33,461 nucleotides of DNA from positions 1 through 33,461 of the forward strand of contig CANQUI010000027.1 in assembly GCA_947626995.1 (NCBI GenBank). Reading direction: 5' to 3'. The stretch comes from an uncultured Eisenbergiella sp. GTDB taxonomy: Bacteria; Bacillota; Clostridia; Lachnospirales; Lachnospiraceae. Below the pieces are notes generated by a model. That model was not told the DNA's origin. It was given only the letters and a program-made list of their open reading frames with translations, and did no database searches. Shown here piece after piece: positions 13,592 through 18,516 of the stretch. Position numbers and translations under genes: made by a program. Positions within the stretch are counted from its first letter, which is position 1. Every line of letters begins with the position of its first letter.

Positions 13592-13653
13592 ATAGCAGGA
13601 AGTTTTTGCTTTGCCAAAATCCACATATCTTAACAGACAGGAAGTGCTTTGTC

Positions 13654-15039
13654 ATGTATCATGTAGATTTCAACCGTCCCATTCACGTTTATTTTATCGG
13701 CATCGGGGGTATCAGCATGTCCGGCCTTGCCGAAATCCTGCTTTCCGAGGGCTTCTCCGTTTCCGGTTCCGACTGGAACCGCTCCCCTCTGACCGATCAT
13801 CTGGAAAGCCGGGGCGCCCGCATCCATTTCGGCAGGCCCCAGAAAGCGGAGAACATCACGGACGAGATTGATCTGGTCGTCTATACCGCGGCGGTTCATG
13901 CGGACAATCCGGAGTATGAGAGCGCAAAACAGCGCGGCATCCCGATGCTCACAAGGGCGGAGTTTTTGGGCCAGCTCATGCGCAACTATCAAACCCCCGT
14001 CGCCGTCAGCGGCACCCACGGCAAAACCACCACCACTTCCATGATCTCCGAAATCCTCCTTTTGGCGGGCATGGATCCCACCATTTCCGTGGGCGGTATT
14101 CTCCAGTCCATTCACGGCAATATCCGCATCGGCAAATCCGGCCTCTTCGTAACGGAGGCCTGCGAATATACCAACAGTTTCCTGCATTTCTTCCCTAAGA
14201 TCGGTATCATCCTCAATATTGAAGAGGATCATCTGGACTTCTTTCACGACATCGACGACATCCGCGCCTCCTTTTGCCGTTTCGCCCGGCTGATCCCTGC
14301 GGACGGCACGCTGATCATCAATGCGGATATCGACCGGTACGAAGAAATCACGGAAGGGCTGCCCTGCCGCATCGTCACCTTTGGCACCAGGCCGGACGCC
14401 GACTATTACGCCACGGACATTTCCTATGATAACATGGCAGACGGCACGTTCCGCCTGCACCGTTTCGGACGGGACGGCGAGATCATTACGCTGGGAGTCC
14501 CCGGCGTCCACAATATCCTGAATTCTCTGGCGGTGCTGGCGCTCTCGGATCTTCTGGGCGTCGATCCCGAGGCCGCCAAGAAGGCGCTGGGCGCTTTCCA
14601 CGGCGCCGACCGCCGCTTTGAATACAAGGGCGAGAAAAACGGCGTTACCATAATAGATGATTATGCGCATCACCCCACGGAAATTACCGCGACGCTGACC
14701 GCGGCAAAAAAAGTTTTGCATCACACCCTCTGGTGCGTGTTCCAGCCGCATACCTACACCCGTACAAAAGCGTTTTTAAACGAATTCGCCGACGCGCTTT
14801 CCATCGCGGACAAAGTGATCCTTATGGACATCTATGCGGCCCGGGAAACCGATACCCTGGGGATCAGCTCCGCCGACATCCAGACGCGGATCCAAAAAAA
14901 GGGAAAGGAATGTTTTTATTTTCATACCTTTGAAGAGGCGGAACAATTTATTTTAAAAAATTGTATCAACGGGGATCTGTTGATAACTATGGGAGCCGGG
15001 GATGTGGTGAAAATAGGCGAAGAGCTGCTTTCCCGATAA
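13654..15039 (+). CDS. murC: UDP-N-acetylmuramate--L-alanine ligase
   Basis: A 461-residue cytosolic ligase adding L-alanine to UDP-MurNAc, the first amino-acid step of peptidoglycan stem-peptide synthesis. It shows the N-terminal UDP-binding loop YFIGIGGISMSGLA, the ATP loop SGTHGKTTTTSM at about residues 118-129, the Mur ligase central motifs (TEACEYTNSFLHF, NIEEDHLDFF), the DDYAHHPTEI segment and PHTYTRTK of the C-terminal domain. Length is normal. The ATG at 13654 is preferred because AGGAAG lies nine bases upstream and homologues begin close to the GxGG loop; an in-frame ATG at 13606 would add 16 unlike residues and start within about 10 bases of the predicted transcript start. It is the only gene on its transcript, having its own promoter and a terminator. 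Confidence 0.96.
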   Translation: MYHVDFNRPIHVYFIGIGGISMSGLAEILLSEGFSVSGSDWNRSPLTDHLESRGARIHFGRPQKAENITDEIDLVVYTAAVHADNPEYESAKQRGIPMLTRAEFLGQLMRNYQTPVAVSGTHGKTTTTSMISEILLLAGMDPTISVGGILQSIHGNIRIGKSGLFVTEACEYTNSFLHFFPKIGIILNIEEDHLDFFHDIDDIRASFCRFARLIPADGTLIINADIDRYEEITEGLPCRIVTFGTRPDADYYATDISYDNMADGTFRLHRFGRDGEIITLGVPGVHNILNSLAVLALSDLLGVDPEAAKKALGAFHGADRRFEYKGEKNGVTIIDDYAHHPTEITATLTAAKKVLHHTLWCVFQPHTYTRTKAFLNEFADALSIADKVILMDIYAARETDTLGISSADIQTRIQKKGKECFYFHTFEEAEQFILKNCINGDLLITMGAGDVVKIGEELLSR

Positions 15040-15040
15040 A

Positions 15041-15165
15041 TTGTCCACATCATCCACAGGCCGGACGCCTTAAAACGCCCTTTGGCCTGTGGATATTTTT
15101 TGTCGAAAAAGCGGGGCAAACAGCGGGTTTTTCGTGTGCCTTCCACACTTTCCACATTTTCCACA
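15041..15165. promoter_or_regulatory. Cluster of DnaA-box-like 9-mers between murC and dnaD
   Basis: The core TCCACA occurs six times in 125 bases. Plus-strand copies are TTGTCCACA (15041-15049), TCATCCACA (15050-15058), CCTTCCACA (15139-15147), CTTTCCACA (15148-15156) and TTTTCCACA (15157-15165). One minus-strand copy is ATATCCACA (15088-15096). Several differ by one base from the consensus TTATCCACA, and neighbouring copies are exactly 9 bases apart. The 15050 and 15088 copies are the arms of the murC terminator, so they are not independent. DnaA binding is inference. Confidence 0.55.
15052..15100 (+). terminator. Rho-independent terminator after murC
   Basis: ATCCACAGGCC (15052-15062) pairs with GGCCTGTGGAT (15084-15094), an 11-bp stem with a 21-nt loop, followed by a T-run up to 15100. 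It begins 13 bases past the murC stop codon. Confidence 0.85.
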
Positions 15166-15212
15166 AATGCCGGAAACCCTTGTATTTACTGGACTTTTCG
15201 GGAAATTGCCTG

Positions 15213-15241
15213 TTTTCTTTTTCCAAAAGTTATGCTATAAT
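15213..15241 (+). promoter_or_regulatory. Promoter of dnaD-dnaC-prs
   Basis: TATAAT at 15236-15241 is preceded by TGC, an extended -10. The -35 position at 17-base spacing reads TTTTCT, a weak match. Transcription would start near 15248, just ahead of the AGGGGG ribosome site of dnaD. The tandem TCCACA boxes end about 48 bases upstream of the -35. Confidence 0.7.
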
Positions 15242-15265
15242 CGCAAGGAACAAGGGGGATGTACC

Positions 15266-16327
15266 ATGGGCAGGATCCAACTGACAAACGACTGCGGCCT
15301 GGAGGCTACGGTGGTTTCCAATATTTTTATTGATTCCTATATGAAAGACGCCAACGACGCGCAGATCAAGGTCTATCTTTATCTGCTGCGCCAGCTGCAG
15401 GCAAACGCCGGGGTGAGCATTTCCGACATCGCGGACTGCTTCAACCATACGGAAAAGGATGTCATGCGCGCGCTGCGCTATTGGGAGAAATGCCGGGCGC
15501 TCACGCTGGTATACGACGAGGAGAAGAATCTGCGGCAGATCCGCCTGAACGACCTGCAGCATACCGACAGCGCCAGACCCGCCGATGCGGTCAGGCCGCT
15601 CTACAGCGCGGCTTCCTCCGTTGCCGTCATCTCCCATCAGACGATCCCGCATCCGTCGGCGTATGAAAAACCGGCGTATACGCCGGACGATTTAAAGGCG
15701 TTTGGCAGGCGCGAGAATACGGCGCAGCTCTTTTTTATTGCCGAACAGTATCTGGGGCGGACATTGTCCTCGTCCGATATGAAATCCATCCTGTTCTTCT
15801 CGGACAAGCTGGGCTTTTCGGACGAGCTCATTGATTATCTGCTGCAATACTGCGTGGAACGCGGGAAAAAGGATTTCCGCTATATGGAAAAGGTGGCTGT
15901 CGGCTGGGCCCAAAACGGCGTTACGACCCCGGAAGAGGCCAAGCGCCAGTCGTCCCGCTATGAAAAAGACGTTTACCGCATCATGAACGCGCTGGGCCGG
16001 TCCAATCCGCCCACGCAGAGCGAAGTCGCCTATATCCGCCGCTGGATACAGGAGTACGGATTCGAAATCGACGTGATCCTGGAGGCCTGCGACCGGACCG
16101 TTCTGGCTACGGACCGGCATCGTTTCGCTTATGCGGACCGCATCCTGGCCTCCTGGCAGAAGGCCGGCGTGCACCATGTTTCCGATATTTCCGGCCTGGA
16201 CGCCTCCCATCAGAAGGAAAAAGCCGGAAAGTCCCCCAAGACGGGCTCCATCAGCGAGTACAACCGGTTCATGCACAACAGCTACGATTTTGATGCGCTG
16301 GAAAAAGAACTGCTCAAGGAGAATTGA
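15266..16327 (+). CDS. dnaD: DnaD-domain replication initiation protein
   Basis: A 353-residue DnaD/DnaB-like protein of low-GC Gram-positives, which remodels origin DNA and helps load the replicative helicase. The N-terminal part (about 1-105) resembles a winged-helix DDBH1 domain (ISDIADCFNHTEKDVMRALRYWEKC). Two DDBH2-like modules follow: about 140-215 (LKAFGRRENTAQLFFIAEQY, DYLLQYCVERGKKDFRYM) and about 235-310 (YRIMNALGRSNPPTQSEV, then YADRILASWQKAGV with the Y-x3-I-x3-W pattern). The ATG at 15266 has AGGGGG upstream; earlier in-frame codons lie before the predicted promoter. The stop is one base before the loader start, matching the DnaD/DnaB-DnaI functional pair. Whether it plays the DnaD or the DnaB role cannot be decided from sequence alone. 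Confidence 0.9.
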   Translation: MGRIQLTNDCGLEATVVSNIFIDSYMKDANDAQIKVYLYLLRQLQANAGVSISDIADCFNHTEKDVMRALRYWEKCRALTLVYDEEKNLRQIRLNDLQHTDSARPADAVRPLYSAASSVAVISHQTIPHPSAYEKPAYTPDDLKAFGRRENTAQLFFIAEQYLGRTLSSSDMKSILFFSDKLGFSDELIDYLLQYCVERGKKDFRYMEKVAVGWAQNGVTTPEEAKRQSSRYEKDVYRIMNALGRSNPPTQSEVAYIRRWIQEYGFEIDVILEACDRTVLATDRHRFAYADRILASWQKAGVHHVSDISGLDASHQKEKAGKSPKTGSISEYNRFMHNSYDFDALEKELLKEN

Positions 16328-16328
16328 A

Positions 16329-17303
16329 GTGGCACTGACAGTTTCCCAATATAATCTCATCATGCGGCAATATGAAGAGCGCCAGACCCGCAACCGGCAT
16401 CTGCGCGAAAAACGGCTGCGCCATATCTACGATACGGTGAACGGTTATCAGGCCCTGGACGAAGCGGTAGCTTCCTGCTGCGTGGCACAGGGCAAAAAGC
16501 TTCTGGCCGGAGACGGTACGGCAATGGACCGCCTGCGGCAGAAACTCTCCCGGCTTGCCGACGAACGGACCGATCTCCTTCTTAAAAACGGCTATCCGGA
16601 GAACTTCCTGCAGCCGGTCTACGATTGTCCGGACTGTCAGGATACCGGATATATCCGCGGGCAGAAGTGCCATTGTTTCCGGCAGGCCGAAATTTCTCTT
16701 CTGTACGAACAGTCCAACCTGAAACAGGTATTGGACCGGGAGAATTTCGACACGCTTTCCTACGACTGGCTGGAAGGGGAAACGCTGGCGCGTTATCAGC
16801 AGACCGTGGAAAAATGTAAGAAATTTTGTACAAATTTTAAAACGCTCTACCAAAATCTGTTTTTTTATGGTACAGTGGGTACAGGCAAGACGTTTCTTTC
16901 CAACTGCATTGCCCGGGAATGTCTGGACATGGGCTGCTCCGTGATCTATTTCAGCGCCGCGGGGCTTTTTGAACTGCTTTCCCGCAACACCTACCGTTTC
17001 CGGGATCCGGAAGAAATGTCCTCCTTATACAGCGATCTTTTTCACTGCGATCTTCTGATCATAGACGATTTGGGTACGGAGATCTCCACAGCGCTTACGC
17101 TCTCTCATTTTTTCACCTGTGTCAACGAGCGCCTGCTGCGGAAAAAATCCATGATTATCTCCACCAATCTCTCTTTGGAGGATTGCCGCAACCGGTATCA
17201 GGACCGCATTTTTTCCCGCATTGCCAGCAGCTTTGAGTTCTGCAAGCTGACCGGCCCCGATATCCGCATGTATCAAAAAGTTCCCAACGCGCTTAAAAAA
17301 TAA
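16329..17303 (+). CDS. DnaC/DnaI-like helicase loader ATPase
   Basis: A 324-residue AAA+ ATPase of the DnaC/DnaI group that loads the replicative helicase at origins and restart sites. The N-terminal part has a Cys cluster (C100, C103, C114, C116 in YDCPDCQDTGYIRGQKCHC) able to bind zinc, like the N-terminal domain of DnaI. The ATPase core has Walker A GTVGTGKT at about 181-188, Walker B LLIIDDLGTE, a sensor-1-like IISTNLS and an R-x-FSRI arginine-finger region. I chose GTG at 16329, one base after the dnaD stop, because AAGGAG lies seven bases upstream; the next ATG is at 16362 and has no better site. A PRPP synthetase gene follows after 28 bases. Confidence 0.92.
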   Translation: MALTVSQYNLIMRQYEERQTRNRHLREKRLRHIYDTVNGYQALDEAVASCCVAQGKKLLAGDGTAMDRLRQKLSRLADERTDLLLKNGYPENFLQPVYDCPDCQDTGYIRGQKCHCFRQAEISLLYEQSNLKQVLDRENFDTLSYDWLEGETLARYQQTVEKCKKFCTNFKTLYQNLFFYGTVGTGKTFLSNCIARECLDMGCSVIYFSAAGLFELLSRNTYRFRDPEEMSSLYSDLFHCDLLIIDDLGTEISTALTLSHFFTCVNERLLRKKSMIISTNLSLEDCRNRYQDRIFSRIASSFEFCKLTGPDIRMYQKVPNALKK

Positions 17304-17331: not shown

Positions 17332-18516
17332 ATGACTGTTCGTGAAGAGACCCGGGATCTGGAAACCATTCCGGTAGGTTCCCTGGGAATCATTCCGCTC
17401 AAAGGCTGCGAATCCATGGCGGAAAAAATTGACGCTTACCTTGAAAAATGGAGAACCGAACGGGAAAGCCAGCATAAAACCACCCTGGCCTTCTCCGGTT
17501 ACCAGAGAAACAGCTACATTCTAAAAAGCCGCGTACCGCGTTTTGGCTCCGGCGAAGGCAAGGGTGAGATCCTTGAATCCGTGCGGGGCGTGGATTTATA
17601 TCTGTTGGTGGATGTCACCAATTACAGCCAGACCTATTCTCTCTGCGGACAGCTCAACCACATGTCCCCGGACGACCATTATCAGGATCTGAAACGCATC
17701 ATCGCCGCCGTGGGCGGCAAGGCGCGCAGGATCACCGTCATCATGCCCTATCTGTACGAAAGCAGACAACACAGACGCACCTCCCGGGAATCCTTAGACT
17801 GCGCCATCGCGCTTCAGGAACTGGTGAAAATGGGCGTGGACAACATCATTACCTTTGACGCCCACGACCCGCGGGTGCAAAACTCCATCCCGCTGCACGG
17901 CTTTGAGACGGTACAGCCCGCCTATCAGTTCATCAAAAATCTGCTGACCGCAGAGCCCGATCTTTCCATCGACGCCGATCACATGATGGTGATCAGCCCC
18001 GACGAGGGCGGTATGAGCCGGGCAATTTATATCGCCAATGTGCTGGGGCTGGACATGGGCATGTTCTACAAAAGAAGAGACTATACAAGAATCGTAAACG
18101 GCCGCAACCCCATCGTGGCGCATGAGTTTTTGGGCACCAGCGTCGAGGGGAAGGATATGATTATCATCGACGATATGATCTCCTCCGGCGAGAGCGCTCT
18201 GGAGGTGGCCAAGGCCTTAAAAAAGCGCGGTGCGAGAAAAATTTTTATCTGCGCCACCTTCGGCCTGTTCACCGGCGGACTGGACAGGTTCGATCAGGCT
18301 TTTCAAAACGGGGAAATCGACCGGGTCCTGACCACAAATCTGGTTTATCAGACGCCGGATCTTCTGCGGCGGGAGTGGTACGTGGACTGCGATCTGAGCA
18401 AATACATCGCCTATCTTATCGACACGCTCAACCACGACGTCTCCATCAGCGATCTCATTGATCCCAATGAGCGGATTCAGCACGCTCTGGCACAATACCG
18501 GGAAAAAAGGCAGTAA
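17332..18516 (+). CDS. prs: Long divergent ribose-phosphate pyrophosphokinase (PRPP synthetase)
   Basis: A 394-residue PRPP synthetase homologue, making PRPP from ribose-5-phosphate and ATP for nucleotide, His and Trp synthesis. Canonical enzymes are about 315 residues; this one has about 60-80 extra residues, mostly before the first conserved strand (SGYQRNSYILKSRVPRF). Family motifs are present: the catalytic loop MPYLYESRQHRRTSRES, the divalent-metal and ribose region DAHDP, SPDEGGMSRA (canonical enzymes have PDxGG) and the PRPP loop IIIDDMISSGES. The usual PRPP loop is DDxIDTxGT, so SSGES is a clear departure. The ATG at 17332 has GAGGAT upstream. It is third in the dnaD operon and ends at a strong terminator. 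It may be a second, specialised PRPP synthetase; function is inferred from homology only. Confidence 0.88.
   Translation: MTVREETRDLETIPVGSLGIIPLKGCESMAEKIDAYLEKWRTERESQHKTTLAFSGYQRNSYILKSRVPRFGSGEGKGEILESVRGVDLYLLVDVTNYSQTYSLCGQLNHMSPDDHYQDLKRIIAAVGGKARRITVIMPYLYESRQHRRTSRESLDCAIALQELVKMGVDNIITFDAHDPRVQNSIPLHGFETVQPAYQFIKNLLTAEPDLSIDADHMMVISPDEGGMSRAIYIANVLGLDMGMFYKRRDYTRIVNGRNPIVAHEFLGTSVEGKDMIIIDDMISSGESALEVAKALKKRGARKIFICATFGLFTGGLDRFDQAFQNGEIDRVLTTNLVYQTPDLLRREWYVDCDLSKYIAYLIDTLNHDVSISDLIDPNERIQHALAQYREKRQ

Follow-up and report, generated by a model that had tools for sequence, protein, structure and literature searches.

Why six copies of the DnaA-box core should be crowded into the gap between murC and dnaD is the question that this locus raises. 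The initial annotation of the window (the whole stretch of 33,461 nucleotides that was analysed) proposed two answers, namely that DnaA controls its own helicase-loading partners or that the locus titrates DnaA. The conservation of the boxes and of their layout and the placement of triple boxes at dnaD support the first of these, and further support comes from the lack of cores in six genera with a short gap and from a register between the boxes and the -10 element. We consider it probable that DnaA binds this conserved segment and thereby controls a dnaD-dnaI-prs operon. In the titles and abstract openings listed by our searches of an open-access library we found no description of DnaA boxes at dnaD and no paper on DnaA boxes in this lineage. 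If true, DnaA would also govern, in a large family of gut bacteria, how much of its helicase-loading partners is made. The regulation of initiation in Clostridia is an open matter, and a passage of one source (PMC7561715) calls the way in which DnaA activity is regulated in C. difficile unknown; a conserved array at the helicase-loader genes would name a concrete circuit to test.

The box cluster and its gene neighbourhood

Six cores, reading TCCACA or TGTGGA, lie in the murC-dnaD gap within positions 15041-15165: they start at 15044, 15053, 15088 (reverse strand), 15142, 15151 and 15160 (Table 1). This recount of motif positions returned every copy where the initial annotation had placed it in 125 bases, including the adjacent 9-mers at 15041 and 15050 and the triple at 15139-15165 with its exact 9-base period. 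The cluster is the 125-base maximum of the window, and the best place elsewhere in the window holds two cores. Dinucleotide shuffles of the 226-base gap gave a mean of 0.11 cores and a maximum of 2, with at least six cores in 0 of 5000 shuffles; the mean is consistent with the earlier estimate of about 0.06 cores expected by chance per 125 bases. A scan of the whole genome had also been suggested, and in the 2.5 Mb assembly TCCACANNNTCCACA (a core pair at 9-base period) occurs without mismatch four times, three of them at the cluster and the fourth within the coding frame of a PALP-family enzyme.

Table 1. Features of the murC-dnaD gap and of the adjoining genes, with their positions in the window
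Feature	Position	Strand	Evidence and remarks
murC, UDP-N-acetylmuramate-alanine ligase	13606..15039	+	Pfam Mur_ligase, Mur_ligase_M, Mur_ligase_C
Head-to-tail pair of box-like 9-mers, TTGTCCACA + TCATCCACA	15041..15058	+	Sequence
Intrinsic terminator hairpin of murC	15052..15094	+	Arms are the second and third boxes; T run 15096-15101
Inverted box ATATCCACA, 3' arm of the murC terminator	15088..15096	-	Sequence
Three boxes in tandem at an exact 9-base period, forming the promoter-proximal array	15139..15165	+	Sequence
T-rich block, ttttcggGAAAtTgncTaTTTcTTTTT-like, partly conserved	15195..15223	+	-10-anchored consensus of 188 regions
Extended -10 element of dnaD, TGCTATAAT	15233..15241	+	Hexamer 15236-15241
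dnaD, DnaB_2/DnaD-like replication initiation protein	15266..16327	+	Pfam DnaB_2, E 8e-42
dnaI/dnaC-type helicase loader, IstB-like AAA+ ATPase	16329..17303	+	Pfam IstB_IS21, Bac_DnaA (matches obtained on the longer frame 16131-17300)
prs-like ribose-phosphate pyrophosphokinase	17332..18516	+	Pfam Pribosyltran_N, Pribosyl_synth

The description of these copies as DnaA-box-like holds for their TCCACA cores; the exact 9-mer TTATCCACA is found in none of the six. Four copies (TTGTCCACA, TCATCCACA, ATATCCACA and TTTTCCACA) are each one mismatch off, and the first two 9-mers of the triple differ from it by more than one. The boxes of the window are degenerate relative to those of most relatives. 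Where a 9-base-step pair follows murC, TTATCCACA stands at the first place in 62 of 69 genera and at the second in 39 of 69, and at the three places of the array it is each time the commonest 9-mer (8, 14 and 10 of 24 genera). Judged by their letters, the 9-mers of pair and array are DnaA boxes, the TTA included. TTATCCACA also occurs upstream of dnaA in the window's own genome, whose DnaA carries the box-binding domain (Pfam Bac_DnaA_C).

Downstream of dnaD the gene order is constant, with dnaI in 76 of 76 and prs in 75 of 75 loci that have room for them, and the prs-like gene is likely the third gene of a dnaD-dnaI-prs operon. As for the promoter, 188 of 193 regions allowed a -10 box to be assigned, and TGn precedes the hexamer in 180 of the 188, in a search that favoured TGn. 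The dnaD promoter had previously been drawn with a -35 element. The promoter scan gave no sigma-70 match that included both hexamers, and an extended -10 fits better. The T-rich block between array and -10 could serve as an upstream promoter element, or another regulator may bind there.

Conservation of boxes and layout in Lachnospiraceae

A DnaD profile matched 412 stretches, and the best 80 were kept; these are titled mostly Lachnospiraceae, Eisenbergiella, Acetatifactor or other family names, with a few other or broader titles. Among these best 80 of 412, murC lies immediately upstream of dnaD in 79. The exception (L050, from the same genome as L034) sits on a contig that starts 230 bases before dnaD, with unrelated repeats, and is kept outside the 79. 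Each of the 79 murC-linked loci from these best 80 matches holds 4-7 cores in the gap. Taken together, the gaps span 22.2 kb and hold 475 cores, a density of 21.4 per kb where the remainder of the same loci has 0.50; when the window is added to the 79 as an 80th region, 481 cores stand against a shuffle mean of 12.95. The initial annotation had called for an alignment across related Lachnospiraceae, and in the named loci the layout of pair, inverted box and array recurs. Of the 80 regions of this best-scoring set, 78 have the pair directly after the end of murC and 79 have an inverted core 38-52 bases past the murC stop (the exception is L068), with a second inverted core near +69 in part of the named loci. 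The later 9-base-step array is either complete or one unit short.

The same picture emerges from a set of 130 genomes, one per genus. dnaD was matched in 129 of them, the window's own genome included (G152 gave no match), and 120 of the 128 other genomes were fetched, leaving out G169, G171, G177, G182, G186, G200, G201 and G202; the named loci and a separate set of genus genomes overlap each other, and may also overlap this family sample. murC adjoins dnaD in 118 of the 120 fetched genera, and the two loci that gave no murC match are L194, at a contig edge, with 4 cores, and L272, with 2 cores. The gap is at least 100 bases long in 112 of the 118 murC-linked genera, and among these 112 at least one exact core is present in 110, at least two in 107 and at least three in 95. 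The two that have no exact core, L214 and L239, carry close variants (TCCACT/C, TCAACA). In the six genera with a gap of less than 100 bases (one of which, L211, is counted here after its dnaD start was moved on reading the sequence) no exact core was found. Cores in the long gaps and none in the six short ones indicate that boxes are present where a promoter of dnaD's own can fit. In L187 and L239 (genomes G158 and G195) the box-like 9-mers have TCAACA in place of the TCCACA core; in G158 they stand in tandem as TTATCAACA repeats, and TTATCAACA is also found near dnaA in both genomes.

Outside the family the arrangement is different. The 26 outside dnaD loci are a non-random set, the best-scoring matches from outside the family, with estimated dnaD starts and, in one case, only 170 bases upstream; murC was found upstream in none of the 26, and 25 have no core and one a single core. 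Three of three other family members in the same sample hold 4-5 cores. The lack of boxes at the outside loci implies that such control would not be general. The initial annotation had named, as the case against it, related genomes that keep dnaD and not the boxes. Such genomes exist outside the family (26 of 26) and in the six short-gap genera, and the remaining family sample goes the other way.

The complete triple is nearly confined to this place. Exact triples at 9-base period occur at 29 places in 28 of the 130 genomes, and 26 of the 29 lie 96-373 bases upstream of dnaD, while the reversed control pattern has no match in the 130 genomes; the remaining genomes mostly have an array that is shorter or decayed. 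Of the three triples away from dnaD, the one in G209 is a collagen-like coding repeat (read from the sequence). The other two are intergenic: in G246 the array is next to an NlpC/P60 gene, and in G175 it separates secA from an S30AE-family (hpf-like) gene, these last two genes being assigned by Pfam. The hpf-like/secA gap of G175 (L307:1437-1557, on contig G175:C18) holds six cores in a pair-single-triple layout like that at dnaD, and the same genome has six cores at dnaD as well. A smaller cluster in the window's own genome (L011:1432-1510, equal to C8:45786-45863) comprises a forward TTATCCACA and a pair of inverted boxes spaced by 12 bases, and is flanked by endonuclease-IV-like and amylase-like genes (names given from the sequence).

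Helical register between the array and the dnaD -10 element

Measured from the array's first core, distances to the -10 element fall into peaks at 64, 73, 82-84, 93-94 and 103-106 bases in 70 genera. This register set comprises 70 of 114 regions (113 genera plus the window); the others had fewer than two cores in step (33), no -10 (5), no forward core (4) or a distance above 130 (2). Among the periods tried, 10.5 bases describes the distances best, with R 0.80 as opposed to 0.50 at 9 bases (n = 70 genera). The same holds for complete triples taken alone (R 0.93 at 10.5 and 0.55 at 9 bases, n = 23) and for arrays of two boxes (0.75 and 0.49, n = 46). The Rayleigh p values of these distributions ignore relatedness. 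On a MurC tree, which was built without L184, the 21 separate-path pairs differing by at least 4 have a mean cosine of 0.63 at 10.5 bases, matched in 0 of 5000 uniform draws. Pairs with arrays of equal size were also used, because the loss of a first unit would move the first-core anchor too; the 18 tree-independent pairs of this kind gave a mean cosine of 0.59 at 10.5 bases (0 of 5000 draws) and of 0.06 at 9 bases (1186 of 5000). Across periods of 10, 10.5, 11 and 12 bases, the equal-size test was matched in 17, 0, 0 and 10 of 5000 draws, under a presumed uniform null and with the analyst's choice of -10. Phasing from the last core to the -10 was discarded, since one 9-base unit gained or lost moves that anchor, and the spacing from pair to array (best period 11, R 0.67) was not relied on for the same weakness.

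The array holds one helix face relative to the -10 and precedes the likely start by roughly 65 to 110 bases. Class I activators sit in this same range.

The proposed control circuit and competing readings

In the circuit that we propose, DnaA would bind the contiguous 9-mers of the array head-to-tail, and it would also bind the pair and the inverted box, which double as the murC terminator. From its fixed helix face DnaA could then influence RNA polymerase bound to the extended -10 of dnaD, and the operon would make helicase loader and PRPP synthase in step with DnaA activity. B. subtilis DnaD affects the DNA binding of DnaA, and an effect of this kind could close a feedback loop. If the promoter is indeed controlled, activation is somewhat more likely than repression; we favour it with moderate confidence because the array lies upstream of the promoter and not over it, in the class I range. 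Counting against the proposal as a whole are the imperfect boxes of the window, the rarity of TTATCCACA at the inverted place, a box spacing unlike that near dnaA, and the small share of genomes with an exact triple (28 of 130). A wider picture is conceivable, although we hold it more tentatively: in Lachnospiraceae a dedicated and near-unique promoter architecture might tie the helicase loaders to the initiator. DnaA would form a contiguous head-to-tail filament on 9-base boxes, in register with the polymerase, and would occupy the terminator boxes too, and a feedback circuit of DnaA, DnaD as its restraint, DnaI and PRPP supply might set initiation. The head-to-tail geometry at 9 bases would be a natural test case for the packing of DnaA on double-stranded DNA.

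Promoters of replication genes under DnaA regulation are described in the review PMC8203912, which names dnaB and dnaQ of Caulobacter, nrdAB of E. coli and dnaA-dnaN of B. subtilis; sda of B. subtilis is a further DnaA-regulated promoter, according to a passage of PMC4447404. As in our locus, boxes lie there upstream of genes for replication or nucleotide supply; DnaA acts as a transcription factor in those cases and is proposed to do so here. The putative target here is instead dnaD-dnaI-prs of Lachnospiraceae, the boxes are contiguous at a 9-base period, and the terminator of the upstream gene incorporates one member of the pair.

The best surviving alternative, though an unlikely one, is that the locus titrates or inactivates DnaA and lies in this gene gap by chance, its boxes setting the level of free DnaA and not the transcription of dnaD. 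With about six boxes per locus and none over the -10, the segment resembles the off-oriC box clusters that play such a role elsewhere, such as datA and the clusters of B. subtilis. The oriC-proximal DnaA-box clusters of B. subtilis were reportedly described by Okumura in 2012. datA of E. coli is, in the part of PMC12371093 that concerns it, a cluster of five boxes off oriC. Like datA/DARS and the B. subtilis clusters, ours is a multi-box cluster away from oriC; unlike them, the array is tied by position and helical phase to one promoter. Titration needs no register with a -10, no lack of boxes at gaps that leave no room for a promoter and no placement at this operon over the genera sampled. 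The register with the extended -10 favours promoter control over passive titration.

Somewhat less probable again is that the array is bound by a protein other than DnaA which recognises TCCACA repeats. When successive cores on the same strand up to 30 bases apart are considered in 193 dnaD gaps, they are spaced by 9 bases 379 times, by 12 bases 33 times and by 21 bases 16 times; upstream of dnaA in 31 genomes, in contrast, a spacing of 9 was seen twice, of 11 six times and of 12 three times. Contiguous spacing at dnaD, as opposed to 11-12 bases at dnaA, thus makes another protein, or an unusual arrangement of DnaA, possible. Box variants near dnaA and at dnaD also covary weakly, a suggestive but not significant trend, as another binding protein would have it: Spearman 0.41 (p 0.058, n = 22) for one class of variants and 0.24 (p 0.28, n = 23) for the other, in genomes drawn from 30 that were hand-picked for variant cases, minus G114 and those that did not have cores on both sides. 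On the other hand, the full 9-mer at pair and array is the DnaA box, and DnaA's partners are encoded directly downstream.

It is very improbable that the segment serves as another replication start or second origin. The density of six boxes in 125 bases would suit such a role, given that 31 genomes, a good number of them chosen for odd boxes, average 2.7 cores in the stretch of up to 700 bases before dnaA. Against it, GC skew is negative on both sides and has no turn in the window, and dnaA and dnaN, identified by Pfam, lie on another contig (C25; the window is contig C27), where TTATCCACA boxes stand beside dnaA. The distance from dnaA to dnaD is about 99 kb in G185, 138 kb in G131, 174 kb in G183 and 666 kb in G244, the 4 of 30 genomes in which both genes were found on one contig. 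The lack of a skew turn and the position of dnaA on the other contig, with a box cluster of its own, make an origin role unlikely, as the initial annotation had already judged. The bipartite Firmicutes-type oriC that a portion of PMC7561715 describes beside dnaA in C. difficile shares with our locus the same 9-mer and the presence of several boxes; here, however, the spacing is 9 and not mostly 11-12 bases, the cluster lies away from dnaA, and GC skew makes no turn. Finally, that the cluster is a by-product of the murC terminator and of chance repeats is more improbable still: two of the six cores are indeed terminator arms, but the array lies beyond the terminator and is conserved across the family.

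The boxes at 15050 and 15088 had been read as the two arms of the murC terminator, and this reading is borne out by the RNA fold of the stem (15052-15094), which has an energy of -24.8 kcal/mol and a z of -4.46. The hairpin was not listed by the terminator scan because its loop exceeds the length that the scan allows. A search of positions 14900-15400 for Rfam families, as would mark a structured RNA leader, gave 0 matches up to E 1. Across genera the commonest 9-mer at the inverted place is AAATCCACA, in 37 of 72, with TTATCCACA in 6 of 72; the T run of the terminator would dictate this preference. It is tempting to speculate that the terminator boxes could link the termination of murC transcripts to whether DnaA is bound.

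Two minor observations regard the surroundings of the terminator. Directly 3' of it, at 15101-15107, the window carries TGTCGAA, a Spo0A-box-like motif common to several close relatives only, and the genome has three Spo0A_C matches. A partnership with Spo0A was considered and dropped, as among the loci listed the motif beside the terminator is kept in close relatives only. In the compact lineages L178, L185, L262, L265 and L270 a single further box comes after the pair; by eye it seems to occupy the loop of a short hairpin that may be the murC terminator.
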